From contig NZ_CP034449.1 of the NCBI RefSeq assembly GCF_003952425.1, positions 4,638,001-4,702,000 of the forward strand: DNA of 64,000 nucleotides, given 5' to 3'. Below the pieces are notes generated by a model. That model was not told the origin of the DNA, ran no database searches, and worked only from the letters and a program-made list of their open reading frames with translations. Below, piece by piece: positions 13,185 through 38,220 of the stretch (its first letter is position 1; the number at the start of each line of letters is the position of its first letter). The DNA is from Mesorhizobium sp. M2A.F.Ca.ET.046.03.2.1 (GTDB lineage: Bacteria; Pseudomonadota; Alphaproteobacteria; Rhizobiales; Rhizobiaceae). The position numbers were made by a program, and so were the translations under genes.

Positions 13185-14050
13185 CGCACAGGCCTCCCGG
13201 AGGCGTCGAGGCGCGGCACAGCATATTGACCCAGCAGGGCGTCTATTTCGGCCTTGTGCCTGGCGAGAGCGCTGTTCACATCACCACGCAGCGCATCGTC
13301 CTCACGCCGAACGCCCATAGAGATATCGTAAATCATGGGCAGTTGCGGTCCGTCTATGCGCGGCGTGACGGGCGTGATGCGTAGCGGCACCCTCTGCTTC
13401 TGGGCGAAATAGCCGGCAAGCGGACCCCACACCACGGCGACGTCGATCTCGCCGCTCGCCACCGCGTCGACGATGCGCGCGGGCGGATTGGGAGCGGAGT
13501 AATCGCCATAGACGGGGTAGCCGATGAGGTGCCCGACGATGCCGCGGCGGCCAAGCGCCTGGACAGGAGGCGAGTTGGCGCCGTCGTCGCCGATGAGTTG
13601 AACGCCGATGCGCAAGTCGCGCAGCCGCGGGTCGTTGAAGGAGGTCACGTCCGGGCTGTCCTGGCGCGTCACGAAGACATAGGACGACCGATAATAGGGC
13701 GTGGTGGTGCGCAGCATTTCGAGATTGGCAGGCGTGCCGGGCACGAGGTCGCACAGTCCCGCCTTTAGCGTGTTGCGCACGAAGCCGCGGCGCTGCGCCC
13801 ACCAGGTATAGGTCAGCTTGGCCCCGAGATCGTCGGCGATGATTTGCGCGATCCTGTTTTCGAAGCCCTGGCCGGCCGCGTTGGAAAAGGGCAAGTTATT
13901 CGGGTCGGCGCAGACCCTGAGCTCACGAGGGCCGGCCGTCGCCGGCAAGAGCAGCAAGGCGACCGCGGCGATGCCGAGCGCCATGCGCGTGAGCAGCTTC
14001 TGGGCCACGCCGTGGATCAAGCCGAATGCATCAGGGCAGACGGAACACAT
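13181..14050 (-). CDS. xoxJ: XoxJ/MoxJ-like periplasmic binding protein
   Basis: The 289-residue protein has a signal segment (MALGIAAVALLLLPATAG) and the family hallmark ELRVCADPNNLPFSN of quinoprotein dehydrogenase-associated binding proteins (TIGR03871). XoxJ/MxaJ proteins are thought to bind and help activate the apo-dehydrogenase. The ATG at 14050 overlaps the dehydrogenase stop by 20 bases. An internal ATG at 13984 would begin exactly at the signal peptide and is a possible alternative. It overlaps the cytochrome gene by four bases. Confidence 0.82.
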   Translation of the reverse strand: MCSVCPDAFGLIHGVAQKLLTRMALGIAAVALLLLPATAGPRELRVCADPNNLPFSNAAGQGFENRIAQIIADDLGAKLTYTWWAQRRGFVRNTLKAGLCDLVPGTPANLEMLRTTTPYYRSSYVFVTRQDSPDVTSFNDPRLRDLRIGVQLIGDDGANSPPVQALGRRGIVGHLIGYPVYGDYSAPNPPARIVDAVASGEIDVAVVWGPLAGYFAQKQRVPLRITPVTPRIDGPQLPMIYDISMGVRREDDALRGDVNSALARHKAEIDALLGQYAVPRLDASGRPVR

Positions 14051-19554: not shown

Positions 19555-22503
19555 TTGCGGCACGACTGTCGAAGCGCGAGGCGCAGTCGCTTGGGCACTG
19601 ATTCAGATCGCAGGACGCTGTCATTTGGCCCCTTTTACTTGCTTCCTGCGCGGGAGCTGCTGGTACGCGGGGATCAACCTGTGCGGATTGGTAGCCGCGC
19701 CTTGGGGATCCTTGTCGCGATGGCCGAACGAGCTGGCGAAGTCGTCAGCAAGAGGGAGCTGTTCGATATCGTTTGGCCCAACACGGCTGTCGAGGAGAGT
19801 AGTCTCAGGGTCCATGTCGCTGCCCTGCGTAAAGCGCTTGGCGACGGCGAAGGCGATAACCGGTACATCGCCACCATTCCCGGCCGTGGCTATCGCTTCG
19901 TCGCGCCAGTCGCAACAACCGGAGAGCCGGTGCCTCGCCAAATAGACGCCGCCGCACGACCGCGAAGCGACGGGAAAGTGGTCGCCGGAATTCGCATCTT
20001 CGGCCGTGACGACTTCGTGGCCTCGCTGAACGCCCTTTTGTGCGAACGGCGCCTTGTCAGCGTGGTCGGTCCGGGAGGAATGGGGAAGACGTCCGTCGCA
20101 CTGGCTGTCACGGAATCTGTCGCGACGCGTTACTCCGATGGGGCATATATTGTCGAACTTGCGCGCTTGGTTGACCCACGACTCGTCCCTACTGCGCTCG
20201 CCACGGCACTGGGCAAGCCGGTCCGCTCCAAAGACGCGACCCCCGAGCTTCTCGAGTTCCTCCAGAATAAACACATGCTGATCGTGCTCGATAATTGTGA
20301 GCATCTTATCGACGCGGCGGCTGAACTGGCAGAACGGATCACCCAAAACACGTCACAAGTCAGCGTCCTGGCCACGAGCCGCGAGCCCCTTCGCGCTCTC
20401 GGCGAGACCGTGGCACGATTGCCGTCGCTCGAGTTCCCGACCCGGCTGGAAGGCCTCACGACGGCCGAGGCGCTCAGCTTTCCGGCCACGCAACTCTTTG
20501 TCGATCGTGCGAAGGCGACGCGAAGCGATTTCGAACTCGATGATTCGACGGTGCCATTTGCCGCCGACATATGTCGTCGCCTCGACGGAATTCCGCTTGC
20601 TATCGAGCTCGCGGCTGGCCGAGTCGATGCATTTGGCATGCGAGAACTTGCATCTTTGTTAGACGAACGATTTCGCGTGCTGAACCGCGGCAGGCGAACG
20701 GCGCTACCGCGTCAGCAGACCTTGAGCGCAACTTTTGATTGGAGCTATGAACTGCTGTCGGAAAGCGAGCAAACCGTCCTGAGGCGTCTGTCGGTCTTCG
20801 TCGGAGCCGTGACGATGACGCCGGCGGTTGCCGTTGCGGCCGGCAGCGACCATTCCTCGTCCGATACGGCGGCTGTGATTGCAGGCCTGGTATCGAAGTC
20901 GCTGGTGGCAGCCGACACCAGCGGTACGGTGACCCAATACAGGTTGCTAGAATCGACTCGAAGCTACGCTCGCGAGAAGTTGACCGAGGCAGGCGAAAGC
21001 TCCGCCTCGGCGCGTCGCCACGCATCCTACTACGCCGCGCTTCTTGATCGGGCGCATTCCGAGTTTTTCAGCAGGCCGCTAGCCGAGTGGATGGCCGAGT
21101 ACAGCAGCTGCATCGACAACGTCCACGTTGCCATTGATTGGGCTCTATCGCCTGATGGCGACGGTGATGTCGGCGTGGCGCTCACTGCCAACGCCGTTCC
21201 GCTGTGGACTCGCCTGACCCTCCTCGAGGAATGCCGAACTCGCGTCGAACGCGCTCTCTCAGTCTTGAGTCCCGATGTCGCTCGCGGAGGCAAGCGCGAG
21301 ATGCAGCTCTTCGCAGCATTTGCGGCGGCCTCGACCCTTACCAAGGGGCCGGGACCGGAATCGGAACTGGCCTGGTCAGCGACGCTCCAAATCGCTGAGC
21401 GGATCGGCGACATCGACTATCAGCTCCGTGCACTATGGGGCACCTGGATTGGCCATCACACCGGCGAGAGCCAGGCTAGGGCCCTCGAGGCGGCGCGCAA
21501 GTTCAGGGACGTCGCGGCGCTGTCGTCGGATGTTGCCGATCCCGTCGTGGGCGATCGGATCATTGGAACGGTCCTCTGGGCTCAGGGAGAACTGCAGGCC
21601 GCTCGCAGCACGATGGAACAGGTCCTTCGCTCATATGTGGCTCCGTCCGATCGTTCGCACCTGATCCGCTTCCAATTCGATCAACGGGTCACGGCCTATT
21701 CGGCATTGTCTCTGACGCTTTGGCTTCAGGGTTTGCCCGAGCAGGCAATGAAAATAGTCGAGACCAGTGCGCAACTGGCACAAAACCTTGCCCACGATCC
21801 TTCGATATTTCATGCGACCGCATTGTCGGGTTGCCGGGTCGCGCTCCTGGCGGGCGACAGGCCTTCCGCCGATAGGCTGCTGGCCTTGCTGCAGGGTGCG
21901 GTAGCGCGGCAAGTCAGCTACGGCGTCTGGATTCGAGCCTACCGGGGCGAGATCATGATCCGCGACGGCGATCCTGAAGCTGGTTCGCGTTTATTGGAGG
22001 TGGCTCTCACCGAGCTCCCAAAAGCGGCCTTTCACGCTCACTACGCGTCGCTTCGGGCCGCCCTGGCGCAGGGTCTCGCCGCTGCGGGCCGGGCTGATGA
22101 TGCGGCGACAGTGATCGAGCATGCACTCGCACTCGCCGAACGCTCGGGGGACGTTTGGTATTTTCCGGAGTTGCTGCGCGTCAAAGGCGAGTTTTTGGCC
22201 GCACGACGGGCACCCGATGCGGCCGAGGAGACTTTTCTACTTTCCCTGGACTGGGCCCGGCGGCAAGGGGCGCTTGCCTGGGAGCTCCGCACGGGCATCA
22301 GCCTGGCGCGTCTTTTGGCGGAACAGGGCAGGATCGCTGTGGCGCACGCGTTCCTGTCTGAGTTGCGGGCAAAATTCACGGAGGGATTCGAGACGGTCGA
22401 TCTCGTCGAAGCCGCACAGCTGCTCACGCGGCTAGAAGACAGTCGACGGGCCGATACTGATGAGATTGAGACCGACAAGAGCACCCGAGGGAAACTGCTG
22501 TAA
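19555..22503 (+). CDS. winged-helix / STAND ATPase / TPR regulator
   Basis: The 982-residue protein has an OmpR/PhoB-type winged helix at about 20-115 (SRALGILVAMAERAGEVVSK then YIATIPGRGYRFVAPV). A STAND-type ATPase follows, with P-loop GPGGMGKTS (about 172-180) and LIVLDNCEHL as Walker B. The C-terminal half is TPR-like helical repeats. Such proteins are signal-responsive transcription factors in rhizobia. The only available start is a TTG at 19555 with no good ribosome-binding site, so the true start is uncertain. Its 3' end overlaps the convergent oxidoreductase gene by 72 bases. The adjacent detoxification cluster is a candidate target. Confidence 0.8.
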   Translation: MRHDCRSARRSRLGTDSDRRTLSFGPFYLLPARELLVRGDQPVRIGSRALGILVAMAERAGEVVSKRELFDIVWPNTAVEESSLRVHVAALRKALGDGEGDNRYIATIPGRGYRFVAPVATTGEPVPRQIDAAARPRSDGKVVAGIRIFGRDDFVASLNALLCERRLVSVVGPGGMGKTSVALAVTESVATRYSDGAYIVELARLVDPRLVPTALATALGKPVRSKDATPELLEFLQNKHMLIVLDNCEHLIDAAAELAERITQNTSQVSVLATSREPLRALGETVARLPSLEFPTRLEGLTTAEALSFPATQLFVDRAKATRSDFELDDSTVPFAADICRRLDGIPLAIELAAGRVDAFGMRELASLLDERFRVLNRGRRTALPRQQTLSATFDWSYELLSESEQTVLRRLSVFVGAVTMTPAVAVAAGSDHSSSDTAAVIAGLVSKSLVAADTSGTVTQYRLLESTRSYAREKLTEAGESSASARRHASYYAALLDRAHSEFFSRPLAEWMAEYSSCIDNVHVAIDWALSPDGDGDVGVALTANAVPLWTRLTLLEECRTRVERALSVLSPDVARGGKREMQLFAAFAAASTLTKGPGPESELAWSATLQIAERIGDIDYQLRALWGTWIGHHTGESQARALEAARKFRDVAALSSDVADPVVGDRIIGTVLWAQGELQAARSTMEQVLRSYVAPSDRSHLIRFQFDQRVTAYSALSLTLWLQGLPEQAMKIVETSAQLAQNLAHDPSIFHATALSGCRVALLAGDRPSADRLLALLQGAVARQVSYGVWIRAYRGEIMIRDGDPEAGSRLLEVALTELPKAAFHAHYASLRAALAQGLAAAGRADDAATVIEHALALAERSGDVWYFPELLRVKGEFLAARRAPDAAEETFLLSLDWARRQGALAWELRTGISLARLLAEQGRIAVAHAFLSELRAKFTEGFETVDLVEAAQLLTRLEDSRRADTDEIETDKSTRGKLL

Positions 22504-25245: not shown

Positions 25246-25524
25246 TGCCGGTTGTAACCCATAAAGGCGCAGCTGGAGACAGCGAGACCACCCCGCGGCA
25301 GTCTCTCTTCATCGAACGGCGGATAAGGGCCGTCAACTATGCTGAACTGCCGACGCGGCCTTCCCGGATGGCTGGCGTCGGCCCCGTTCAATGCTTGAGC
25401 GGCTGAACATGCGACGGCGGCTGTTTCGAGTAGTGCCCACAAGCGGACGGACAGCAGCCGGCCCCGACGTTGCCATTGCCTCCTCGTTTCTATGCCGGCC
25501 AATCACGGCCGCAGGAGAAACGAA

Positions 25525-26105
25525 ATGGGACATTCACAATATGACCCGACCGCCCACGGTCGCCGCGCTTGGAATGCAGGCAAGAAGGTTGGCACGAAAC
25601 GACCTCTGAAACCTCGACAGATATGGGCTATCCGCTTCTTCCTGGATCGGGAGCAGCGTTTGCGCGATCGCGCGCTTTTCGATCTCGCGATCGACAGCAA
25701 GCTGCGCGGGTGTGACCTCGTCAAGATTAAGATCGGTACCCTCGTGGTCGGCCCGGAAATTCGGACACGCTCGATGGTCGTGCAGCAGAAGACTAGCCGG
25801 CCAGTACAGTTCGAACAGATGAGCGACGCACGCGCAAGTCTTCTTGCCTGGCTACAACGACGCGGCGGTGGTGTTGATGATTATGCATTCCCTAGCAGGA
25901 TCAACCATGCTGCTCACCTAAGCACAAGACAGTATGCCCGTCTCGTCGATGAGTGGGTCCAGGCGGGCACAGGGAATGCGTTCCGTATTCCTGGGGCATA
26001 AGCCCAATCGCGTCAATCATCTACAAGGCGACAGGAAACCTGCGGGCCATCCAGATTCTGCTTGGCCACACCAAGAGTTTGCGCCTTGAGGATTTCTCTC
26101 CATAA
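25525..26105 (+). pseudogene. decayed tyrosine recombinase (integrase)
   Basis: The ATG at 25525 after CAGGAG begins MGHSQYDPTAHGRRAWNAG and matches, from memory, a recurrent small rhizobial integrase of about 200 residues. Translation stays in register to VDEWV, then shifts and stops at about 26001. The homologous sequence resumes in another frame near 26010 (SIIYKATGNLRAIQ, then ILLGHTK), losing the region that carries the Arg of the HxxR box. It ends abnormally after HTK without the catalytic Tyr. At least one frameshift and one 3' break make it inactive. It marks the left edge of an accessory region. Confidence 0.75.
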
Positions 26106-26214
26106 CGATCCCAGCATCGGCTTTTTCCTGCCCTGCCCACCGATCAAGTGTTTTGTGGACAGCATCGTACTTTGCTAATGTTGCCGCCACTGCACTCGGC
26201 GAGGAAATCGCAGC

Positions 26215-29200
26215 ATGTCGGAGAAGGGTCCGGTCGCGTTGCCGGGGGCGTCTGTGGCAACAGGTTTTCTGGGCGGCAACGGCGACAATCCGTCCGAAGC
26301 CCGGCATGAGCGTCGAATCCTGACCGCGCTCTGCTACGACCTGGTCGGATCGACCGACCTTCTTGCCATCCTGGACATCGAAGAGTTCGAGGAACTTATA
26401 TCAGCCTTCCAGCGGGCGACGAAACAGGCGGTCGCGTCATGCTCGGGTGCCGTCCAGGTCGAGGTCGGTGATGGCGGCGTTGCTTTGTTTCCTGCCGAAA
26501 TAGACGCCAAGGACGCGGCATCGCTGGCGATCCGAGCCGGGCTCGAAATCATCGACGCCTGCAGGCGCGTCGGCTCGGACAAAGGCCGCGCCGATTTGCA
26601 TGTCCGAGTCGGAATCGCGACATCGATGACCCTGATCCACAAGGGTGACGCCGATACCGGTCACGACAATGTCACCGGCCCGGCCTTCGCGATGGCCACG
26701 CGGCTCCAGGCCATCGCGCAGCCGGATACGGTGATGGTCTCGGACGCGACACGCAACCTGGCACGACGGTCGCATGTGTTCAGCTTTAGGGGCGCCCATG
26801 CGATCAAGGGGTTTGCCGAGCCGGAGCTGGTCTGGCGCGCGCTGAGTCACAAGCGCGAGGTCGACCGCTTCTTCGCCTTCGGGCGGCTGAGCAGTCCGCT
26901 CGTCGATCGCGAGGCCGAGCTCGCCACAATCGCCGAAGCATGGGACAGCGCCCTTGCGGGAAACGGCGGCGTTGTGGTGATCGAGGGCGAGGCCGGGATC
27001 GGCAAGTCGCGCATTCTTCACGAAGTGCGCCGGCGCACGCGTCACCAGCGCGCGAAACTCCTATTCTTCCAGTGCACGCCCGGCGGCTTGCGCTCGGCGC
27101 TCCATCCGCTGCTACAGAACGTAGGCGGCGATCTCGCCGGCAATGAAGGGCAGCTGAGTGCTGCCGCCGTGGCGGAAGCTTTCCGCGATCATGACGTCCA
27201 CGATCCTGAAATCATCGACATCTTTTCGTTCCTGCTCGGCGCTGCGGGGGGCGATCCGATGCTCAAGGAGATCGACGCCGAAGCGATGCGCGCGAAAGCC
27301 AATTGGGCGGTTCGCCACGCGCTCGAAGCCCTGTGCGCCAGCGGGCCGATTGTTCTGGTGGTCGAGGACATCCATTGGATCGATCTGACGTCGAGACAAT
27401 TGTTGGCTGAACTTGCACAGTCGGCCCGTCACTTCCGGGCGCTTGTCATCGCGACCACGCGCCCTGAATCCGGGAGCTGGCTGGCAGCATCGAATCCAAG
27501 GCATATCTCGCTAAAGCCGCTCAACCGCGAGCAAACGCGGCTGGCGATCGCGGCCATGTGGCCGCAAGGCACGCCGTCAACTTCCCCGGAATTTCTCGAC
27601 GTGGTGGAACGCGTGACCGGAGGCGTCCCGCTGTTCATCGAAGAAATCTGCCAGTGGATGACCGAGAACGCGGCGTCGGCAACGGATCGGCTGGAGCAGA
27701 CCGCGACGCGCAGTCATGCCTCGGTGTTCGAAAGCGTGATCGAGGCCAGGCTCGAAACGCTGGGGTCGGCACGCGAAGTCGCGCGCGCTGCGGCCGTCGC
27801 GGGCAACCGTTTCAATCAGGAATTGCTGCGCGCGCTGTTGCCGGAGCTCGACGACGAAATCATCGCAAACGCGCTGGATACGCTGAGTGACGCCGGGTTC
27901 CTGATCCGTGTGCGGCCTTCCGGCGCTCCGGTTTATGGCGTGCGCCATGCGCTTATCCAGGAGACGATCTACAACGCAACGCTGCGCAAGAGACGCCAAG
28001 CCTTGCATCGCCGCCTGTTTGCCGCGGTGAGCCGCAATCGAAACCTGGCCGGGTGGCTGGGCACCGCCGAGGTTGCCGAGCATGCAGAGCGCGCAGGCCT
28101 TCTGGAGGACGCGATAGCTCAGTTCGTGATCGCAGGCACGGAAAGCTCGTCCCGCTCGGCGATGGCGGAAGCGAGGCAGATACTCGAGCATGCATTGGCG
28201 CTCTGCGAGCGCGTTGCGGCAGCCGACACGCGAGACGCGCTGCGGCTATCGGCAATGATCGTGCTCGGTCCCATCCTGACCGCTGTCGAAGGTCCGAACT
28301 CGGCGCCCGCCCGCAAATTGTACGAGGACGGTGTGGTGATCGCCCGGCGGCGGCCGGTGGCCGAGCGGGCCAAGTGGTTCCCGATCTACTGGGGCTGGTG
28401 GTTTACGGATACCGTCATGGACGGCGAGCGCGCGGAGGTCGTGCTCAGCGATCTCAGGGATGTCGAGGATGCCGAAGTGCAACTCCAGGCCAGGCATTGC
28501 GTGTGGGCAATCGACTTCAATCTTGGCCGCCACGACCGCTGCATCGCGACAGTCGACGCCGGACTGTCGCTCTATGAGCACGGCCACGGCAAAGCCCATG
28601 CTGCGTTGTTCGGCGGACATGACGCGAGGGTCTGCGGGCTCGCCCACCGCGCCTTGTCAATGTGGTTCGTCGGAAAGCCGGCAGGCGCGCTCCATTCGAT
28701 GTCGGAAGCTAGGAGCTGGGCGCAGCAAACCGGACATGCCGGCAGCATCGCGCATGCCTACCTCAACGAGGCGATGCTGCACTGCTATCGCCGCGATTTT
28801 TCGATGCTGCGAAGCGTGATAGCGGATCTGCGCCACTTGACCGAGCGTCATCATATGCCCGCCCTCGCCGCCGCAGCGCAGATCTTCGAAGGCTGGTGCG
28901 ACGGCAACGCCGGCCAGGTCGAGGGCGGCAGGGATAAAATGCGGCAAGGCCTCGGCCTCCATGGAGAGTTCCAGACGCCTGAGGACGAACCGGTCTATTG
29001 CGGCATGCTGGCGGAGCTTTTGACAAGAACTGCCGAGGTTGATGAGGCGCTCGCTCTGCTGGACTCGGCTGTGGCGCAGGCCGAGGCCGGCGGCAGCCGG
29101 TTCTGGCTGGCAGAACTCTACAGGCGAAGGGCCGAGCTACTTCTTCTCCAGGGCGATGCGAAGGCGGACGTAGTCGCTGCCCTCGAAAAGAGCATCGCCA

Positions 29201-29376
29201 TAGCCGCGGAGCAAGGCGCCGTGCCTTTCCTCGTCAGTACATACGAAATCCTTCAATCATCAGGCCTGTCACCTGAACTGTCGGCGCGCTATCGCGATCG
29301 GGTCGAACGTGCGAAATCCGCTCTCGAGCCGGGCGCCTCGCTGATCGTCAATCCCGAATCGGCTGTTCGGCACTAG
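26215..29376 (+). CDS. class III cyclase-like / AAA ATPase / TPR protein
   Basis: The 1053-residue protein has a class III nucleotide cyclase domain at about 30-205 (LCYDLVGSTDLL, VEVGDGGVALFP). A STAND/AAA module follows with P-loop GEAGIGKS (about 259-266) and VVEDIHWID, then a long TPR-like C-terminus. The usual cyclase Asn in the NxxxR motif appears as Ala (GPAFAMATRLQ), so the cyclase may be catalytically weak or dead and serve as a sensor. It ends 24 bases before the ycaO gene, so it probably regulates or belongs to the modification locus. Confidence 0.8.
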   Translation: MSEKGPVALPGASVATGFLGGNGDNPSEARHERRILTALCYDLVGSTDLLAILDIEEFEELISAFQRATKQAVASCSGAVQVEVGDGGVALFPAEIDAKDAASLAIRAGLEIIDACRRVGSDKGRADLHVRVGIATSMTLIHKGDADTGHDNVTGPAFAMATRLQAIAQPDTVMVSDATRNLARRSHVFSFRGAHAIKGFAEPELVWRALSHKREVDRFFAFGRLSSPLVDREAELATIAEAWDSALAGNGGVVVIEGEAGIGKSRILHEVRRRTRHQRAKLLFFQCTPGGLRSALHPLLQNVGGDLAGNEGQLSAAAVAEAFRDHDVHDPEIIDIFSFLLGAAGGDPMLKEIDAEAMRAKANWAVRHALEALCASGPIVLVVEDIHWIDLTSRQLLAELAQSARHFRALVIATTRPESGSWLAASNPRHISLKPLNREQTRLAIAAMWPQGTPSTSPEFLDVVERVTGGVPLFIEEICQWMTENAASATDRLEQTATRSHASVFESVIEARLETLGSAREVARAAAVAGNRFNQELLRALLPELDDEIIANALDTLSDAGFLIRVRPSGAPVYGVRHALIQETIYNATLRKRRQALHRRLFAAVSRNRNLAGWLGTAEVAEHAERAGLLEDAIAQFVIAGTESSSRSAMAEARQILEHALALCERVAAADTRDALRLSAMIVLGPILTAVEGPNSAPARKLYEDGVVIARRRPVAERAKWFPIYWGWWFTDTVMDGERAEVVLSDLRDVEDAEVQLQARHCVWAIDFNLGRHDRCIATVDAGLSLYEHGHGKAHAALFGGHDARVCGLAHRALSMWFVGKPAGALHSMSEARSWAQQTGHAGSIAHAYLNEAMLHCYRRDFSMLRSVIADLRHLTERHHMPALAAAAQIFEGWCDGNAGQVEGGRDKMRQGLGLHGEFQTPEDEPVYCGMLAELLTRTAEVDEALALLDSAVAQAEAGGSRFWLAELYRRRAELLLLQGDAKADVVAALEKSIAIAAEQGAVPFLVSTYEILQSSGLSPELSARYRDRVERAKSALEPGASLIVNPESAVRH

Positions 29377-29400
29377 CCGACCCTGCAAGAGCAATCCGCG

Positions 29401-30555
29401 ATGCTGGAGCGATACAAACGCCTTGGTCCGCCGCCCGACGAGGCGCTGGCGAAGCTGATGAAGATGCGCGGAGGCCTTGGCATTACGCGGATCGCCGACA
29501 TTACCGGACTCGACCAACTCGGCATCCCGGTCGTGCAGGTGACTAGACCTTTCTCGCTCTCCAACGCGGTCGCGCAAGGCAAGGGCGCCACGCTGGCGCA
29601 AGCCGCGATATCGGCCATGCTGGAATCGGCCGAGACCTTCTTTGCAGAGCAGGTGGCGAATTTCGACACAGTCGTCGGTTCCGCCGATCAATTGCGCATC
29701 CCGCCCGGTCGGTTCGAAAGGCATCTCCGGGGGGGCGCCACGCCCGGATGGCGCGGTAAGGACACGGCGTGGGTAGCCGCGGACAATCTTCTTACCGGCA
29801 GCCGCGACCTGGTCCCGTTCGAGCTCGCGCACACCGCGTATGTGTTGCCGTCCCTGCCCCACGACGGCATTTTCGCGGCATCGACGAGCGGTTTGGCCGC
29901 AGGCTTCGAGGAGCGGGATGCCATCGTTCATGGCATGCTTGAATGCATCGAACGGGACGCGATCGCCACGTCATACCGGACCCACGGTTTTTTCCACCGT
30001 CAACGCATCGATCCCGAGACGATCGATGATCCGTCGCTCCGTGATCTCCTGGAAACTTTGGCGGCCAAGAACGTGCTGGTCGGCCTTTGGCAGGCTTTGT
30101 CGCCGTTGGGCATCCCGGTGGTGTGGTGTCATCTGCTGGAAGACGAACCGACGGAAACGGTCCTTTTGGATCATCCGGCTGATGGCTCGGCTGCGGGTTT
30201 CAGTTTTGCCGGCGCGGCGGCGGACGCCATCTACGAAGCGGCCCAGGCCCGTCTGGCGGCGATCTCGGGGGCACGCGATGACCTGACGCGCGCGTCCTAT
30301 CCGAAATACCCCGATCGGCAGATGATTGCCGCGCATCGCCGGCTCCTCCGCGATGGACCGCGCAGCGTGGATTTCCGCGCGCTTGCCGAGCAGAATTTCA
30401 ACACGGCGTCGGACGGGCTGTCGGTCCTCTTGGCAATTCTCGAAGACGGAGGGTTCGATGCGGTCCACCTAGTCCGGGTAAGAACGCGACCGTTCGACGC
30501 CCTGTCGGTTGTCAGGATCGTCATCCCTGTCTTGCAGCCACTTTTGCAGGGGTAG
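29401..30555 (+). CDS. ycaO: YcaO-domain ATP-dependent cyclodehydratase
   Basis: The 384-residue protein carries the YcaO ATP-binding helix GFEERDAIVHGMLECIERDA (about 168-187), with the spaced Glu residues that bind Mg-ATP. YcaO enzymes activate peptide backbone amides to make azolines, amidines or, with TfuA, thioamides. Here the C-terminus ends VIPVLQPLLQG and lacks a Pro-rich PxPxP tail. TfuA follows after five bases. No E1-like or Ocin-ThiF partner is near, which favours TfuA-dependent thioamidation over azoline formation; this is inference. Confidence 0.85.
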   Translation: MLERYKRLGPPPDEALAKLMKMRGGLGITRIADITGLDQLGIPVVQVTRPFSLSNAVAQGKGATLAQAAISAMLESAETFFAEQVANFDTVVGSADQLRIPPGRFERHLRGGATPGWRGKDTAWVAADNLLTGSRDLVPFELAHTAYVLPSLPHDGIFAASTSGLAAGFEERDAIVHGMLECIERDAIATSYRTHGFFHRQRIDPETIDDPSLRDLLETLAAKNVLVGLWQALSPLGIPVVWCHLLEDEPTETVLLDHPADGSAAGFSFAGAAADAIYEAAQARLAAISGARDDLTRASYPKYPDRQMIAAHRRLLRDGPRSVDFRALAEQNFNTASDGLSVLLAILEDGGFDAVHLVRVRTRPFDALSVVRIVIPVLQPLLQG

Positions 30556-30560
30556 ATTTT

Positions 30561-31283
30561 ATGCGCCCGAAACTCGTCTTCACCGGCCCTACCGTGTCCC
30601 ATGCCGACGCGTTGAAGGTCGTCGATGCGGTATGCCTTCCCCCCGCCGTGCAAGGATCGATTGTTTCAGCCGTGCAGCATTTAGACCCGAGCGCGATCCT
30701 TGTCATAGACGGCGGTTTTCAGGCTGAGCCGGCGGTTCGGCACAAGGAAATCCTTTGGGCTCTCAGCCGCGGCATTCATGTCTTCGGAGCGGCCAGCATG
30801 GGCGCCCTTCGAGCAGCCGAGCTGTTCCCCCATATGCAAGGCGTCGGGCTTATCTACCGATGGTATCGCCGCTTCGCCTTTGCACCCGACGACGCTGTAG
30901 CGGTATTGCATGGACCGGCCGAGGTGAATTTCGCTCAATTGACGCATGCGCTGATTGACTTGCGCCGGACCCTTCGCGCTGCTTGCCGGCGCGGCGTGAT
31001 TTCATCCGAACAGCAGGCGAGGCTCGAGGGTGCGGCACAGGCCGTCAACTTTCGCGAGCGCACCCTGGCACGGATGGTCCGGGATGCGCATCACGGCAAC
31101 GACGACGTCGAGAAATTGTGCAGGGAGCTCGGCGCGGCTTTCGTCCAGCAAAAAAAGCAAGATGCCCTGCGGGCACTCGAACTTTTGCGGGACCAAGCAT
31201 TTGAAAAAGCACACCCCATGCCGGAATTGCAGCTAACCTCCGCCTTCTCCAAGGATATGGATGATGCGGGGCTGGCGCTATAG
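30561..31283 (+). CDS. tfuA: TfuA-like protein
   Basis: The 240-residue protein begins MRPKLVFTGPTVSHADA and contains the TfuA hallmark GAASMGALRAAEL (about 76-88), followed by YRWYRRFAFAPDDAVAVLHG. TfuA partners with YcaO in trifolitoxin and thioamide biosynthesis and in archaeal McrA thioamidation, where it supplies sulfide. It lies five bases after ycaO. Its presence makes thioamidation the leading hypothesis for this locus. Confidence 0.87.
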   Translation: MRPKLVFTGPTVSHADALKVVDAVCLPPAVQGSIVSAVQHLDPSAILVIDGGFQAEPAVRHKEILWALSRGIHVFGAASMGALRAAELFPHMQGVGLIYRWYRRFAFAPDDAVAVLHGPAEVNFAQLTHALIDLRRTLRAACRRGVISSEQQARLEGAAQAVNFRERTLARMVRDAHHGNDDVEKLCRELGAAFVQQKKQDALRALELLRDQAFEKAHPMPELQLTSAFSKDMDDAGLAL

Positions 31284-31335
31284 GTCGTGACCTCTTGGCG
31301 GCCGACGATTTACGCAACGTAAGCACCGTGATAGC

Positions 31336-32544
31336 GTGGCAGCGTCAGAGGGGGCCAAGCAATTGGACGCGGTCGATCGTGTCGTTGCGCAAGATCGGTT
31401 GCTGGGAACGCGGTTCCTGGTCTACCCGCAGGTCCCTCATCTTTCGGGTTACGGAACACCCGAAACAGTATGGATTTCTACTCCACCCGATCTGATCCGC
31501 TCCGGCCCGGAAGATCACCGCATTTGCGTTCGCGATCCGCTCCTCGACAAGGAGCCTTACGACTACCCTTATCTGCCACCGTTTGTCGGGGAAATCTTTC
31601 CGCCTGCAGAGGCTGGCTTTGACGGCCATTTCGATCAGATTTCCCTAACCTCGCGACAGTTCCTTTCTGCACACGCTTTCGCCTCGGTCAGCCGCGTGCT
31701 GGACATCTGGGAAAGCTACCTCGGCAAACCGATTGTCTGGTATTTTGCCGAGACGTACGAGCGGCTCGAAATCATCCCCTTCGTCAACTGGGAGAATGCG
31801 CAATCGGGTTATGGCTATCTGGAACTCGGCCGAGAGCGCGGCATCGACGGAGGCAAGTATCCCTACGCGCTCAACTTCGATGTGATCGCACATGAGGTCG
31901 GCCACGCAATCTTGTTTTCGTTGTTCGGGACACCAGCCGGCGGCCTGACTCAAGGCGATTTCGGACCGTTCCACGAAGCCAGTTCGGATCTGGTCTCGCT
32001 CTTATCCTTCCTGAATTTCGACAGCGGCATGGACCGGCTGCTGCGGCACTGCGACGGCAACCTACTTGTTCTCAATGAACTGAACCGGATTGCCGAACTG
32101 ACCGGCGATCGGCAGATTCGCCTCGCCAGCAACGCACGCCGCATGTCGGAGGTGACGGCAGAAATCCATGACAGGTCACGGCCATTCACGGGGGCTGTGT
32201 TCGACACGATCGTCGACGCCTACCACGCGGCACTGGTGCACGAGGGGTTGGCCGACGAGAGGCTGCTGGGGATCGATATCAAAGATCTCGACCAATCCGA
32301 CATGCAGCGCATCTCGGATTTCACGTCCCGCGCCTTCCGCGCTCGGCCCTTCATGTTCAAGAGCATGCTGATCAGAGCAAGGGACGAGGTGGCTCTCGCA
32401 CTTGCTCAGGCATGGCCACGCCTCGATGCGGATGACCTGTCGTTCGAAAAGGCCGCGGCGTTGGTGGTGGACGCCAGCGATCGCGTCGCGCCGATGCTCG
32501 CGGAAAAATTCGATGAGAATTTCAGCTGGCGGGAGATCTTGTGA
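31336..32544 (+). CDS. zinc metallopeptidase (gluzincin) of the YcaO-TfuA locus
   Basis: Starting at GTG 31336 the product has 402 residues; a TTG at 31363 preceded by AGAGGGGG is a credible alternative. It contains H186-EVG-H190 (VIAHEVGHAILF) and a downstream E214 in FHEASSDLVSLL, the M4/thermolysin-like third ligand. There is no signal peptide, so it acts in the cytoplasm. It may remove a leader from a modified peptide, or process the small proteins encoded just downstream. Family assignment beyond gluzincin is not possible by eye. Confidence 0.7.
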   Translation: MAASEGAKQLDAVDRVVAQDRLLGTRFLVYPQVPHLSGYGTPETVWISTPPDLIRSGPEDHRICVRDPLLDKEPYDYPYLPPFVGEIFPPAEAGFDGHFDQISLTSRQFLSAHAFASVSRVLDIWESYLGKPIVWYFAETYERLEIIPFVNWENAQSGYGYLELGRERGIDGGKYPYALNFDVIAHEVGHAILFSLFGTPAGGLTQGDFGPFHEASSDLVSLLSFLNFDSGMDRLLRHCDGNLLVLNELNRIAELTGDRQIRLASNARRMSEVTAEIHDRSRPFTGAVFDTIVDAYHAALVHEGLADERLLGIDIKDLDQSDMQRISDFTSRAFRARPFMFKSMLIRARDEVALALAQAWPRLDADDLSFEKAAALVVDASDRVAPMLAEKFDENFSWREIL

Positions 32545-32576
32545 GCTGAAGGATGCAGCAAAAAGGAGCGAGGAAA

Positions 32577-32879
32577 ATGAGCGACGACTATCACCGACCG
32601 ACACTAACGTTTCCATCAGGCGCTTACAACGCAACACAGGTCAGGCTCTATGGCTTGGGGGCGGAGATTGGACTCAGCGTGCCCGGTGCGCCAGCACCCT
32701 TTGGGGACACCGGCATGTATGTCGAAACCGCGCCTGGGGCACCCATCACCGACGAGCAACGTGCCAACGCACTTGAAGTGTTGGGGAAATATAATAGCAA
32801 CAAAGGCCGCCAAGATATATTAAATGGAATTATTCCATTTCCAAAATACCGATCAGAGTCTCTTATCATTTCAAGATAG
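32577..32879 (+). CDS. small unrecognised protein, candidate modification substrate
   Basis: The ATG at 32577 follows GGAGCGAGG and gives 100 residues. The N-terminal half is rich in Gly/Tyr/Ala/Pro (GAYNATQVRLYGLGAEIGL, then SVPGAPAPFGDTGMYVETAP). The second half is more ordinary, ending YRSESLIISR. It has no Cys. It lies 32 bases after the metallopeptidase gene. No known family. Candidate precursor or accessory protein of the YcaO-TfuA system, from context only. Confidence 0.6.
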   Translation: MSDDYHRPTLTFPSGAYNATQVRLYGLGAEIGLSVPGAPAPFGDTGMYVETAPGAPITDEQRANALEVLGKYNSNKGRQDILNGIIPFPKYRSESLIISR

Positions 32880-32929
32880 ACCTGAAGAATTTTGGCGTTG
32901 CGTTCATTTCAACGGTAGGAAGCACATTC

Positions 32930-33268
32930 ATGCTCGGATCATCTCCAGAACAGAAAACATCGTGCGGGATTATTGTCGGTTATGCCTATGAGGGACATAC
33001 CTACGATTTGCCAAAGCCCAAGATAATGATCATCCCGGCGTTTCCGGAGCCCAAGATACCAGCGGACGATTCGGAATTTGACGCGAAGGAACCTGAAGGC
33101 TACGCGGTTTGGCTCGTTGATAAGCTCGACGAATGCGTGGAGTTGGAGATGAACCAAGGCTTTGTCGAACAGATCGTCCTCGAGGCAAACCTTCCAGGCA
33201 AGCGTTCACCGACGATGTACGCATCCAAGATGACGATGGGACACCGTGGCGGAAAGCTGAACGACTAG
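32930..33268 (+). CDS. small unrecognised protein, candidate modification substrate
   Basis: The ATG at 32930 follows TAGGAAG and gives 112 residues. It begins MLGSSPEQKTSCGIIVGYAY, then a Pro/Lys-rich stretch (DLPKPKIMIIPAFPEPKIP), an acidic middle part, and KMTMGHRGGKLND at the end. It has two Cys. Not similar by eye to the preceding protein. It closes the YcaO-TfuA gene row; the next DNA is pseudogene remnant. Could be an immunity/partner protein or a second substrate. Confidence 0.55.
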   Translation: MLGSSPEQKTSCGIIVGYAYEGHTYDLPKPKIMIIPAFPEPKIPADDSEFDAKEPEGYAVWLVDKLDECVELEMNQGFVEQIVLEANLPGKRSPTMYASKMTMGHRGGKLND

Positions 33269-33313
33269 TCTCTCATGTTCCCTGTCAGGGTTGATTCCGT
33301 TGAAGGTCTTTGC

Positions 33314-33578
33314 CATCTCATCGCCGGCCGCTACTCCGAAGTGGTAAGGGCTGAACGTCGGGCCGTACTGATGAGACCAAACTTTGGAACCGCCTGGCGC
33401 ACACTCACAGCGCGGCAGGATTAGCCGGCGATCTGGAAATGGCCCGACAAGGACTCGTCGAATGCAAACCTCTACAGCCGAATCTCAGCATCGACTGGGT
33501 CGAGAAATACCGCCCGCTGATACGGCTGAGGACCGCGCCAGATACGTCGAGGGCCTGCGTCGAGCGGGCCTGGAATAG
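33314..33578 (+). pseudogene. frameshifted C-terminal remnant of a cyclase/TPR gene
   Basis: Three successive frames join into one sense: HLIAGRYSEVVRAERRAVLM from 33314 up to a stop at 33422, then AGLAGDLEMARQGLVECK and LQPNLSIDWVEKYRPLIR in the next frame, then AEDRARYVEGLRRAGLE to the stop at about 33578. This is the typical tail of the rhizobial adenylate cyclase/TPR proteins. At least two frameshifts, and the 5' part is absent, so it is a decayed fragment. Confidence 0.65.
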
Positions 33579-33833
33579 TCCGGCTAAATCGTGCCAGCCG
33601 ACACCCCGCCGACCTGCGACGCAGCACATTGCGCGCCGCATCTGCCTCGACCCCGCAAAGGCATCGATACCCGGCGGCGCATGGGGGACCTATTCACGCG
33701 CCTTATGGGCGCAAGCCGCTCTACGCAGCGAATATGGGCTGATTTTGGCGGCCATCGCTTTCGAAGGTAATGTACTGAGAGTCTGCATAACCGGCGAGGG
33801 CAATATAGACCAGTGCCAGTCGCTTCTGATGGA

Positions 33834-34664: not shown

Positions 34665-37600
34665 TTGACGTCGAGCGTCGAACCAATCAGCCTTTCTCAA
34701 AAACAAGCTTCGAACGATACCGGTATTGATCGCGAGGCTTTGGCCCGCCTTTTGGTGGAAATTGCCCGGAACGTCGATCCGGACAACCATACGCTTTACG
34801 AAGGTGTTCCAGCCGCCGACCATCGGCTGGAAAGGCTCCGCCAACTGCTCGTCGGCGGCGAAATCTCGGAGCTGTCCCGCGTTACGCACCTGCTCGACGA
34901 ACCCGAGCAGCTTGCCGCCGCGGTGGGCAACGTTCTGCCCGAAGCAACTGCGCGCGCGTCCCATACGCAACTCGGCGAGGCTCTTGCCCCGGCTGTCGAA
35001 CGGGCGGCGCAGCGGTCCATCCAAAAGAACCCAAACACGCTCACCGATATATTATATCCGGTGTTTCTGCCGGCCATTCGCAAGTCGATCGGCGAAAAGA
35101 TCGACCAAACCTTCCAGTCGTTGAATGAGTCTCTGAGGCATATATTCACATGGCATGGGTTGAAGTGGAGGTTTGAAGCCTGGCGAACGGGGACAAGCTT
35201 CTCTGCAGTTGTTCTCAAGCATTCTCTTATCTATCGCGTAGAACATGTCTTTCTCATCAGCCGCGCTTCCGGGCTCCTGATTGCGCATGTAACTTCCCAA
35301 GACGCAACCAGCGAAGACCCTCAACTGATTTCCTCGATGCTGAGCGCGATCCAGGATTTTGTGAAGGACTCTTTCAAGGAGAAGGAAAACAGCGGCCTCG
35401 ACACCATCCGGTTTGGGGAACTTCGCCTCTGGTCGGAAGTCGGACAGTTTGCGACCCTGGTTGCGGTGATCCGGGGAAATCCTCCGGAGGAACTGCATGA
35501 AGTCATCCGCGACGTACTGCTTCGCATCCATCAAGAATTCTCGCGGGCCCTGGAGCGGTTCGACGGCGACAGTTCCCAGTTGCCCGGCGTTGAGACGCAG
35601 TTGCAGACCTGCGTCGAGCTGCAGCACATGGATTCGAAAGAGGGATTTCCGTGGCTGGTGGTGACGGCGGTCCTGCTGGCATTGATCGTGGCGGGCGGCT
35701 GGTTCTTTCTGTCCTGGCAAACCGCACACCGCTGGCAGGCCTACCTGTCGCGGCTGGCGGCCCAACCGGGCATAGTCGTTTCGGACCAAAAAATTCGTGG
35801 CGGCGAGTTCTATGTCGCCGGCCTGAGAGACCCGCTCGCCGCGGACCCGCAGTCGCTGCTGTCGGGAACGGAGGTCGATCCCGCCCGCGTTCATTCAAAC
35901 TGGCAGTTCTATCAGAGCCTCGAGCCGGAATTCGTGCTGAAGCGGCTGTCGGCGTCGCTGGCGCCGCCGGATTCGGTACGACTCTCGGTCGTCGATGGTC
36001 GCATCGTCGCCGAGGGTGAGGCGACTACCACGTGGATCAACCGGGCGCGGGCCGCTGCCCAGCAGCTTTCCGCAGGCGGGCCGGTCTTCGACATCTCCGG
36101 GGTCCGCGATGTGAGCGCCGAGGAGCGCTGGCAGGTGTATGTGTCGCGACTGGAGGCCCAGCCTGGCATCATCGTCGCCGATCAGAATGTGCGCGACGGC
36201 CAATTCTATATTACCGGTCTGAGAGACCCGCTTGCCGCCGACCCGCAGTCGCTGCTGCCCGGGACGCAGGTCGATCCCGCTCGCGTTCATGCAAGCTGGC
36301 AACTCTACCAGAGCCTTGAGCCGCAGTTCGTGCTGAATCGGCTGACGGCGTCGCTCGCGCCGCCGGATTCGGTGCGGCTTTCAGTCGTCAATGATCGCAT
36401 CGTTGCCGCAGGCGAGGCCACCACTGCGTGGATCAACCGGGCGCGTGCGGCCGCCCGGCAGCTTTCAGCCGGCGGCCCGGTCTTCGACATCTCCGGGGTA
36501 CGTGATGTGAGCCCCGAGGAGCGTTGGGAGGCCTACGTGTCGCGACTGGAGACGCAGCCCGGCATCATCGTCGCCCAACAGAATGTGCGCGATGGCCAAT
36601 TCTATATTACCGGCCTGAGAGACCCGCTTGCCGTCGACCCGCAGTCACTGCTGTCCGGGACGCAGGTCGATCCCGCTCGCGTTCATTCGAGCTGGCAATT
36701 CTATCAAAGCCTTGAGCCGCAGTTCGTGTTGAAGCGGCTGACGGCGTCGCTGTATCCGATGGATAAAGTGCGACTTTCGATCGTCAATGGCCGCATCGTT
36801 GCCGAGGGTGAGGCTCCCGACACCTGGATAGATCGGGCGCGCGCAGCGGCAAGACAGCTTTCAGAAGGCGGGCCGGAGTTCGACATCTCCAAGGTTCGTG
36901 ATGTGAGCCCCGATGCGCGCGCGGCCGAGCATTGGCAATATTATGTGTCGCGACTTGAGGCCCAACCGGGAATAATCGTCGCCCAACAAACGGAGAGGGG
37001 CGGAGATTTCTACATTTCCGGACTGAGAGACCCGCTTGCCGCCGACCCGCAAGCTCTGCTTTCCGGAACGAAGGTTGATCCCGCCCGCGTTCATTCACAG
37101 TGGCAATTCTATCAGAGTCTTGATCCGAAGTTCGTGGTGAAGCGGCTGACGGCGTCGCTGTCCCCGCCGAAATCGGTTCGGCTTTCGATCATCCAGAGTC
37201 GCATCGTTGTCGTGGGCGAGGCACCTGCCGGCTGGATCAGCCGGGCGCAGGCCGCCGCCGACCAACTTTCGGCGGACGGAGTGGTTCTGGATGTCTCGCA
37301 GTTGCGCGAGCTGAACCTTGCAGAGCTTAATCAGTTGAGAGAGGCCATCCAGACGACCGATATTTTCTTCTCTTCCGGTAGAGTTGTCCCGGGACCGGAG
37401 CAGACGCCGGTGCTCGACAGATTGGCTGATCAGTTGAAGGAATTCGCCGAAAATGCCCGCAAGGCAGGCGTGACAGCGCGGTTCATGTTGACCGGCCATT
37501 CGGACACAACGGGTCGTGAGACGGCCAACGCCTCGATCAGCGCTGCCCGCGCCGAGACAGTTCGCGCGCTTCTCAACAAGCGCGGCGTCGCTCCGGAACT

Positions 37601-37712
37601 GCTCTTGGTTCGGGGCGCCGGCACCTTTGAGCCGGCGGTACCCGAAAACGAAAATAGCCGAACTGGGAACTCCACCAACCGCCGGGTTTCGGTTACAGTG
37701 AACCTGGAGTAG
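34665..37712 (+). CDS. OmpA-domain membrane protein with four internal repeats
   Basis: A TTG start at 34665 gives 1015 residues. The N-terminal 325 residues are cytoplasmic and helical. One membrane helix follows at about 328-348 (PWLVVTAVLLALIVAGGWFF), then four periplasmic repeats of about 132 residues beginning at residues 356, 488, 620 and 756. The C-terminus is an OmpA-like peptidoglycan-binding domain (MLTGHSDTTGRETANASISA). It should span from cytoplasm to cell wall, placing a cytosolic domain next to the coiled-coil protein and Rab-like GTPase encoded in the same operon. Each repeat ends in a segment resembling a BON domain. Confidence 0.75.
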   Translation: MTSSVEPISLSQKQASNDTGIDREALARLLVEIARNVDPDNHTLYEGVPAADHRLERLRQLLVGGEISELSRVTHLLDEPEQLAAAVGNVLPEATARASHTQLGEALAPAVERAAQRSIQKNPNTLTDILYPVFLPAIRKSIGEKIDQTFQSLNESLRHIFTWHGLKWRFEAWRTGTSFSAVVLKHSLIYRVEHVFLISRASGLLIAHVTSQDATSEDPQLISSMLSAIQDFVKDSFKEKENSGLDTIRFGELRLWSEVGQFATLVAVIRGNPPEELHEVIRDVLLRIHQEFSRALERFDGDSSQLPGVETQLQTCVELQHMDSKEGFPWLVVTAVLLALIVAGGWFFLSWQTAHRWQAYLSRLAAQPGIVVSDQKIRGGEFYVAGLRDPLAADPQSLLSGTEVDPARVHSNWQFYQSLEPEFVLKRLSASLAPPDSVRLSVVDGRIVAEGEATTTWINRARAAAQQLSAGGPVFDISGVRDVSAEERWQVYVSRLEAQPGIIVADQNVRDGQFYITGLRDPLAADPQSLLPGTQVDPARVHASWQLYQSLEPQFVLNRLTASLAPPDSVRLSVVNDRIVAAGEATTAWINRARAAARQLSAGGPVFDISGVRDVSPEERWEAYVSRLETQPGIIVAQQNVRDGQFYITGLRDPLAVDPQSLLSGTQVDPARVHSSWQFYQSLEPQFVLKRLTASLYPMDKVRLSIVNGRIVAEGEAPDTWIDRARAAARQLSEGGPEFDISKVRDVSPDARAAEHWQYYVSRLEAQPGIIVAQQTERGGDFYISGLRDPLAADPQALLSGTKVDPARVHSQWQFYQSLDPKFVVKRLTASLSPPKSVRLSIIQSRIVVVGEAPAGWISRAQAAADQLSADGVVLDVSQLRELNLAELNQLREAIQTTDIFFSSGRVVPGPEQTPVLDRLADQLKEFAENARKAGVTARFMLTGHSDTTGRETANASISAARAETVRALLNKRGVAPELLLVRGAGTFEPAVPENENSRTGNSTNRRVSVTVNLE
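35730..37310 (+). repeat. four tandem in-gene repeats (about 396 bp unit)
   Basis: Units start at 35730, 36126, 36522 and 36930; the first two periods are exactly 396 bp and the third is 408 bp. The protein units share RLEAQPGIIV, GLRDPLAADPQSLL and VDPARVHSSWQFYQSLEP. High nucleotide identity between units two and three suggests recent duplication or gene conversion. Confidence 0.85.
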
Positions 37713-37725
37713 TGCGGAGCCCGGG

Positions 37726-38220
37726 ATGCTGCAAAAAAAGATCTGCATGTTGGGCGGGTTCGCCGTCGGCAAGACGAGCCTGGTGCGCAGGTTTGTCCAA
37801 AGCATCTTCTCGGAAAACTACCTGACCACGGTCGGCGTCAAGATCGACAAGAAAAGCGTCGCGTTTCCGGACAAGACCGTGGACTTGATCTTGTGGGACC
37901 TGGCCGGCGAAGACGATATCGGTTCGTTCCGCGTCAGCTATGTGCGAGGCGCGACCGGGCTCGTGCTTGTCGCCGATGGAACCCGGCCAGCCACTCTTGC
38001 CGTGGCGCTCACGCTGCGTGAACGGTGCGAGGCCGAATTCGGTGCCATGCCGTTCATATTGCTGTTCAACAAATCCGACCTGACCGAGCGGTGGGCGATA
38101 CCGGAAGGCGAGATCGACGAACTCAAACAACGTGGATGGCAGGTCTATCTGACGAGCGCGCTATCGGGCGAACATGTCGACGATGCGTTTCGTCAGCTTG
38201 CTTCGATGGTCGCCAAGTAG
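37726..38220 (+). CDS. Rab/Ras-like small GTPase
   Basis: The 164-residue single-domain GTPase has G1 GGFAVGKTS (residues 10-18), a G2 Thr in the YLTTVGVKI region, G3 WDLAGED (DTAGQE in eukaryotic Rabs), G4 NKSDL and G5 TSAL. It has no membrane segment or lipidation signal. Prokaryotic Rab-like GTPases (Rup group) are known but mostly uncharacterised. It lies 13 bases after the OmpA gene and three bases before the cyclase gene, so it probably relays a signal from the envelope protein to the cyclase. That link is inference. Confidence 0.85.
   Translation: MLQKKICMLGGFAVGKTSLVRRFVQSIFSENYLTTVGVKIDKKSVAFPDKTVDLILWDLAGEDDIGSFRVSYVRGATGLVLVADGTRPATLAVALTLRERCEAEFGAMPFILLFNKSDLTERWAIPEGEIDELKQRGWQVYLTSALSGEHVDDAFRQLASMVAK

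Follow-up and report, generated by a model that had tools for sequence, protein, structure and literature searches.

The window analysed here is a stretch of 64,000 nucleotides from Mesorhizobium sp. M2A.F.Ca.ET.046.03.2.1 (contig NZ_CP034449.1, positions 4,638,001 to 4,702,000). It contains a cassette of five genes, which are all on one strand and encode, in this order, a cyclase/ATPase/TPR protein, YcaO, TfuA, a peptidase and a precursor; the precursor, a protein of ~230 residues, is the candidate substrate of the YcaO-TfuA pair. The features of the cassette are as follows (coordinates are those of the window).

26074..33294, no strand assigned: whole cassette, the stretch common to cassettes in other genomes, with sharp shared boundaries.
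26215..29376, + strand: cyclase-like/AAA-16/TPR protein, 1053 aa, putative sensor-regulator.
29401..30555, + strand: YcaO, 384 aa, predicted ATP-dependent thioamide-forming enzyme (PF02624, E 1.5e-53).
30561..31283, + strand: TfuA, 240 aa; predicted role, hydrolysis of thiocarboxylated ThiS as a supply of sulfide (PF07812, E 8.4e-40).
31336..32544, + strand: HEVGH metallopeptidase, 402 aa; its predicted role is release or trimming of the core.
32577..32879, + strand: N-terminal half of the precursor (frame 1), with the conserved MSDDYHRPTLTFPSGAYNATQVRLYG (32577-32654) followed by a hypervariable segment; it ends prematurely after the frameshift.
32843..32846, + strand: A-run at the frameshift site, one base fewer than in five of five close alleles (alignment).
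32930..33268, + strand: open reading frame (ORF) of 112 residues, an internal stretch of the precursor and no separate gene.
32960..33193, + strand: conserved C-terminal half of the precursor's folded leader domain, GYAYEGHTYDLPKP ... WLVDKLDE ... LEANL, in the second frame.
33194..33265, + strand: C-terminal tail of the precursor, PGKRSPTMYASKMTMGHRGGKLND, the predicted core; in the sister branch its place is taken by tandem repeats.

A preliminary description of this DNA had named the four large genes (cyclase/AAA/TPR, YcaO, TfuA and HEVGH), and all four were confirmed at these positions. It had also placed two small unrecognised proteins of 100 and 112 residues behind them; judged by their sequence, these two ORFs are the halves of a single ~230-residue gene that was split by a frameshift. 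All nine fetched relatives of the genus possess one open frame of 217-244 residues, which spans both halves of the window; this frame starts like the 100-residue protein and ends like the 112-residue protein. Matched against a profile built from these relatives, the window yields two abutting pieces, positions 1-97 in one frame and positions 93-236 in a second frame. Two open frames do exist in the window, but the idea of two separate small proteins retains practically no credit; for the family it is refuted by the uninterrupted frame of the relatives, the one-base length difference at the break and the contiguous coverage of the profile over two frames. The database protein P0001 equals the first 90 residues of the window and then continues for 20 further residues in the second frame; therefore, the break may reflect either an error in sequencing or a mutation that arose recently. 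Because the precursor gene is broken as sequenced, this strain may not make the product.

In the intact Mesorhizobium precursors, a conserved start, which reads MSDDYHRPTLTFPSGAYNATQVRLYG in most alleles, is followed by a variable segment, then by a conserved half-domain with the motif GYxYEGHxY...LPKP...W..DK...LxxN, and finally by a conserved tail with the motif PG.RSP..Y...M.L.HR.G.L. Across all loci, the precursors are 149-285 residues in length. An AlphaFold2 model of the precursor, computed with 58 sequences, has a mean predicted local distance difference test score (pLDDT) of 82.3; the ten-residue blocks of residues 11-200 score 73-95, and residues 214-230 score below 50. The model thus predicts a folded body and a loose tail. 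With Foldseek and with a second structural aligner, no clear PDB relative was found. No NCBIfam model, TIGR03795/NHLP included, matched six intact precursors up to E 10 in a search whose program filters drop most matches above E ~0.1.

The precursor travels with the enzymes. A scan with the precursor alignment, using one genome per species, gave 84 confirmed loci, 80 of which were kept. As found by tblastn, 79 of these 80 loci have cyclase, YcaO, TfuA, peptidase and precursor on the same strand and in the same order; the remaining locus lies on a contig of only 3,180 bases, where just peptidase and precursor are found. All five genes were also present, in order, in each of the nine fetched relatives. 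The preliminary description had suggested co-occurrence with the YcaO/TfuA pair as a check, and with 79 of 80 loci its reading survives. The host genera include Mesorhizobium, Rhizobium, Sinorhizobium/Ensifer, Chelativorans, Phyllobacterium, Microvirga, Chelatococcus, Stappia and Aestuariivirga.

To guard against a possible bias of the pattern scan, profile searches of whole genomes were added. At the level of the order, 11 of 297 genomes matched, and YcaO, TfuA and peptidase lie beside the precursor in all 11. At the level of the class, seven of 385 genomes matched; among the six new ones, TfuA and peptidase were present in six and YcaO in five. At the level of the phylum, there were eight matches in 398 genomes, all within the window's own class. 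Three weak profile matches proved, on checking, to have all five genes. Starting from TfuA instead, we found this gene in 23 of 101 relatives' genomes, at 25 places; peptidase and precursor were present at 20 of the 23 readable loci, two contig-end TfuA fragments (G076) lying outside these 23. The locus is also present on pRL11 of Rhizobium johnstonii 3841 (RL_RS31040 to RL_RS31025), where peptidase and precursor are annotated as hypothetical proteins only. Directly after the precursor of this locus (L154), a 131-residue hypothetical gene (WP_011654999.1) is located at 13738-14133.

The window belongs to a single-core branch with the tail PG.RSP..Y...M.L.HR. In distant precursors beside the same enzymes, this tail is replaced by perfect or near-perfect C-terminal tandem units, namely VSGAR, VSGSR, VSGAK, VSGSK, GMSAR, GASVR, AVMASR, DLVGRS, MTGRSM, YSGGKA, GSGANL and GMNV. 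Repeats above the best of 100 shuffles were found in 22 of 109 precursor rows, 21 of them being tail repeats; the repeat of L105 is N-terminal (leader) and was left out of the latter count. The 109 rows include loci fetched twice (e.g. L113/L132 and L069/L131) and the near-identical Mesorhizobium copies L200-L203 and L205, and leave out three precursors of the weak matches that were checked later. In 15 arrays checked for exact units, amino-acid-identical copies are mostly written in different codons; the eight copies of L150 are eight distinct DNA units. The ratio of non-synonymous to synonymous differences (pN/pS) between units, pooled over 16 of the 21 arrays, is 0.055, with a pS of 0.574; single arrays range from 0 to 0.38. 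The identical residues from differing codons and the low pN/pS show that the units are kept by purifying selection on the peptide. Two further observations concern the distribution of the types: G036 carries both precursor types within one genome, and the genus relatives L200-L203, L205 and L206 are of the GMSAR-repeat type, near which a cyclase-like match lies that is partial and different.

In a YcaO tree, which was built by a quick method with a midpoint root and contains several long branches, the repeat branch and the single-tail branch are separate; three label changes are needed, versus a mean of 20.8 for shuffled labels. Since the tree splits with the precursor type, enzyme type and tail type are associated, which is what an enzyme that acts on the tail would lead one to expect.

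YcaO is directly followed by TfuA in the window. Its best NCBIfam model is TIGR03266 for McrA-glycine thioamidation (144 bits, below the cut-off of 365), and no housekeeping YcaO model is among the three NCBIfam models listed for this protein. Grouping with housekeeping YcaO proteins had been named as a point that could undo the preliminary reading; these scores do not refute it. The protein aligns with structure 6pe3 (MJ1094), and E75, E78, E181, E184, E279 and R284, which probably form its catalytic set, are kept in all 111 aligned rows, the window included. For TfuA, the closest NCBIfam model is NF033432 of the McrA system, with a score under the cut-off; structure 6xp8 matches with E 1.2e-27. 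Counting the window, TfuA S79 is kept in 113 of 113 rows and K198 in 112 of 113; these residues probably correspond to the Ser-Lys pair named in PMC13185837. ThiS-family proteins are encoded at three places in the genome of the strain. The protein at 26215-29376 matches PF00211 (E 5.1e-7) and PF13191 (E 4.3e-19), and its best NCBIfam match is TIGR03903 TOMM_kin_cyc, with 333 bits, below the cut-off of 706. We take TIGR03903 to belong to the NHLP-Burk-type clusters of thiazole/oxazole-modified microcins (TOMM).

The peptidase at 31336-32544 has no Pfam or NCBIfam match from sequence. The HExxH zinc motif and the downstream Glu are present in 108 of 110 peptidase rows, the other two being frame fragments of 18 and 91 aa. 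Its predicted model has the thermolysin-clan (M4/M36) fold, and structural alignments give ~10-16% identity to solved M4/M36 members. The protein is thus likely a thermolysin-like peptidase, and cleavage of peptide bonds is predicted. It resembles M4/M36 peptidases in the HExxH motif, the downstream Glu and the predicted fold, but differs from them in its low identity, the missing Pfam match and its position in a locus that resembles those of ribosomally synthesized and post-translationally modified peptides (RiPPs). A review of RiPP proteases names, in its accessible part, metalloproteases of M1, M16, M50, M61, M79 and M103. Alpha-ketoglutarate-dependent oxidative HEXXH enzymes are also described from RiPP clusters in the available text of PMC12636437.

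Taken together, we propose, with a probability of about 0.6, that YcaO-TfuA thioamidates the flexible C-terminal tail of the folded ~230-residue precursor, and that the neighbouring thermolysin-like peptidase likely frees this tail. The folded domain would be an oversized leader on which the enzymes dock; sulfur would come from ThiS via TfuA; the peptidase would cut the tail, or the repeat units, free; the tail would be the modified and released core; and the cyclase/ATPase/TPR protein would regulate the system. The preliminary description had considered a thioamidating pathway that modifies a protein and then trims it; our findings fit this suggestion, with the chemistry remaining a prediction. 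The predicted site of modification is the residue that immediately precedes Arg or Lys, because of the repeat units (VSGA-R, GMSA-R, VSGS-R/K, GASV-R, AVMAS-R and DLVG-RS) and of the thiovarsolin precedent, in which, as given in the accessible part of PMC6511847, the thioamide lies between Pro and Arg of APR. Most units have a residue, usually a small one, before Arg or Lys; YSGGKA fits as well, whereas GSGANL and GMNV are without Arg or Lys. We see even odds that the cassettes represent a hitherto unrecognised thioamidated RiPP class that is scattered over the Alphaproteobacteria, with precursors of 149-285 residues, folded leaders followed by one conserved ~24-residue tail or by 4 to ~12 units of 4-6 residues, thioamidated mini-peptides released by the peptidase, and a hypervariable leader face that marks strain identity.

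Several observations weigh against this proposal. The exchange of backbone oxygen for sulfur, which would create the thioamide in the precursor tail, is predicted from the gene families only. The TfuA-YcaO loci L204, L208 and L209 are without peptidase and precursor; no YcaO was detected at L151, which has an NVGM-repeat precursor, TfuA and peptidase, after three further frames were scanned; and L153 (G244), one of the eight matches at the level of the phylum, retains a remnant of the C-terminal half of the precursor without enzymes, which probably reflects decay of the cassette. L149 has a non-repeat basic tail, yet falls within the repeat branch of the YcaO tree. No transporter, immunity gene or RiPP recognition element (RRE) partner was identified in the shared five-gene unit (flanks of the other loci not scanned). 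In the single-core branch, the conservation of YxYEGHxY, a motif of the folded domain, equals or exceeds that of the tail, and modification there is possible. Finally, the leader/core reading does not account for the pattern of variation. In five Mesorhizobium loci (L054, L055, L056, L062 and L067), the tail is the best-conserved part of the precursor (92-96% identical to L045); the hypervariable segment (32655-32959 in the window) is 13-25% identical to that of L045, and the enzymes of these loci are nearly those of the window (YcaO 89-94%, TfuA 93-95% and peptidase 95-97% identical). A fixed tail with a diversifying leader segment is the reverse of the usual arrangement of leader and core in RiPPs. 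Diversifying selection may act on the variable segment through some partner that it meets; therefore, explanations at the level of the whole protein stay alive.

One of these is protein maturation, which we consider unlikely. YcaO-TfuA would thioamidate the folded domain at YxYEGHxY, as in McrA and uL16; the whole protein would be the product, and the tail would serve as a signal for processing or targeting and be cut off by the peptidase. YxYEGH ranks with the best-conserved parts of the precursor (E139, G140 and W179 are invariant in 58 aligned precursors), the McrA-glycine model is the best match of YcaO, and E. coli YcaO recognises the folded uL16 structure, according to the available portion of PMC13063428. 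However, the motif varies in the repeat branch, where it reads FTFDG in L150, FIGIG in L151 and GYMVD in L152, while the short repeats persist. In addition, a signal that is merely removed would hardly account for several repeated units of 4-6 residues under purifying selection.

The other is antagonism or self-recognition, to which we assign a rather low probability. The precursor would be polymorphic, its hypervariable segment would face, under diversifying selection, a partner such as a competitor receptor, an immunity factor or a phage or host molecule, and the modification of the tail would be maturation only. The segment falls into 29 classes among the 104 database proteins that could be parsed (of 120 listed), and near-identical enzyme sets with unrelated segments are what balancing selection with replacement of alleles would produce. 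Against this, the shared stretch stops at 33294 without a further gene to the right of the precursor, and therefore no immunity or secretion gene travels on that side. Drift in a leader loop would also give such variation.

Formation of azolines or amidines, in which YcaO would cyclodehydrate Ser, Thr or Cys in the tail, is very improbable. The tails do contain Ser and Thr, and the best NCBIfam match of the regulator, TIGR03903, is TOMM-associated; but TfuA stands beside YcaO in 79 of 80 loci, and the SagD model gives YcaO 77 bits against a cut-off of 219. A PxPxP end of YcaO is associated with azoline formation, and none of the 111 YcaO proteins ends in PxPxP. Neither an azoline dehydrogenase nor an E1-like partner was found in the five-gene unit or among the scanned neighbouring proteins of the window (flanks of the other loci not scanned), in agreement with the preliminary description, which had seen neither.

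None of the other tailoring genes of the thioamitides (thioviridamide, thiostreptamide and thiogochangamides) is seen in the five-gene unit. The thioamitides share with the cassette the YcaO-TfuA pair for backbone thioamides (PMC13185837, accessible text) and differ from it in their precursor. The thiovarsolins (varAYTO of Streptomyces varsoviensis) are alike in that ycaO adjoins tfuA and in that short core units with Arg are repeated, the family spanning no repeat to five repeats. However, as far as described in the available part of PMC6511847, VarA was found in a window of 20-120 residues, VarO is heme-oxygenase-like, and the cluster is without a specific protease, whereas the cassette has precursors of 149-285 residues, a leader that is folded in the model and a thermolysin-like peptidase in the cluster. 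The methanogen ycaO-tfuA system for McrA thioglycine provides the closest NCBIfam models for both enzymes (TIGR03266 and NF033432) and modifies a protein, not a small peptide (PMC5589413, accessible portion). In the cassette, by contrast, the scores of the two models stay below the cut-offs, the substrate is an unrelated protein whose tail is disordered or repeated, and a peptidase is co-encoded. The E. coli YcaO/uL16 system is similar in having a folded protein as YcaO substrate; different from the cassette, this substrate is a ribosomal protein, and the accessible text of PMC13063428 describes the YcaO suspected of modifying uL16 as being without TfuA nearby. The TOMM NHLP-Burk clusters (TIGR03795 with a Ser/Thr kinase) have a cyclodehydratase beside a long leader of ~108 residues and a large kinase (PMC2887384, available part); in contrast, the cassette has no NHLP match among the six precursors searched, no dehydrogenase was seen, and TfuA is present.

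TfuA loci of Proteobacteria have been mined at large scale, with more than 500 from Rhizobium, and in 2021 all known YcaO-TfuA thioamidated RiPPs came from Actinobacteria, as stated in the accessible text of PMC8120280. RiPPER, the precursor finder used for that mining, is by default limited to precursors of 20-120 residues (PMC6511847, available part), which would exclude precursors of 149-285 residues; assuming this default, the earlier mining likely missed the protein-sized precursors. In the literature searched, no description of the precursor was found. The preliminary description had matched the locus to no described RiPP class: this stands for the precursor and the peptidase, but not for the YcaO-TfuA loci, which had already been mined. 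What is new concerns the precursor and how it is processed; the YcaO-TfuA pair is already known.

The edges of the cassette were located by blastn of its flanks against 12 close cassettes. On the left, similarity begins at 26074-26075 in the longest matches (L045, L046, L049 and L054); on the right, it stops at 33294 in L045, L046, L048, L049 and L054. One further feature adjoins the left boundary.

25492..26001, + strand: truncated tyrosine integrase, part of the surroundings and outside the pathway.

This fragment matches PF00589 with E 1.4e-5 and 25.4 bits, just below the cut-off of 27.1; relatives of its DNA in other genomes match up to ~26076, where the cassette begins. To the right (33296-33580) lies short repeated DNA, with 88-90% identical copies at two other places in the same genome; it also occurs upstream of the cassette in L045 (85% identical). 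This repeat resembles a mobile or repeat element. The DNA of the OmpA-like gene right of the cassette is present in many genomes of the genus, but the gene is beside none of the nine cassettes fetched first. Since the integrase fragment and the repeat abut sharp edges and the OmpA-like neighbour is not shared, the cassette looks inserted at its present site. No shared terminal words were found at its ends, and the cassette was also found on plasmids. The region 34665-38220 holds the OmpA-like gene, whose product of 1015 residues has OmpA and BON-like domains as well as internal repeats, and behind it the gene of a small Ras/Roc-type GTPase (PF00071, E 4.2e-27). A separate, second STAND-type regulator of 982 residues is located at 19555-22503; it contains a winged-helix DNA-binding domain (PF00486), an NB-ARC-like ATPase and TPR.

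The protein-sized precursor with repeat tails is a candidate substrate for many rhizobial YcaO-TfuA loci, and provides a sequence handle to find more of them; the locus of Rhizobium johnstonii 3841 poses the question directly in a symbiont that is used in the laboratory. If the proposal is true, YcaO enzymes would use a folded-leader logic, thermolysin-clan peptidases would take part in RiPP maturation, and plant-associated bacteria would make thioamidated peptides of 4-6 residues.

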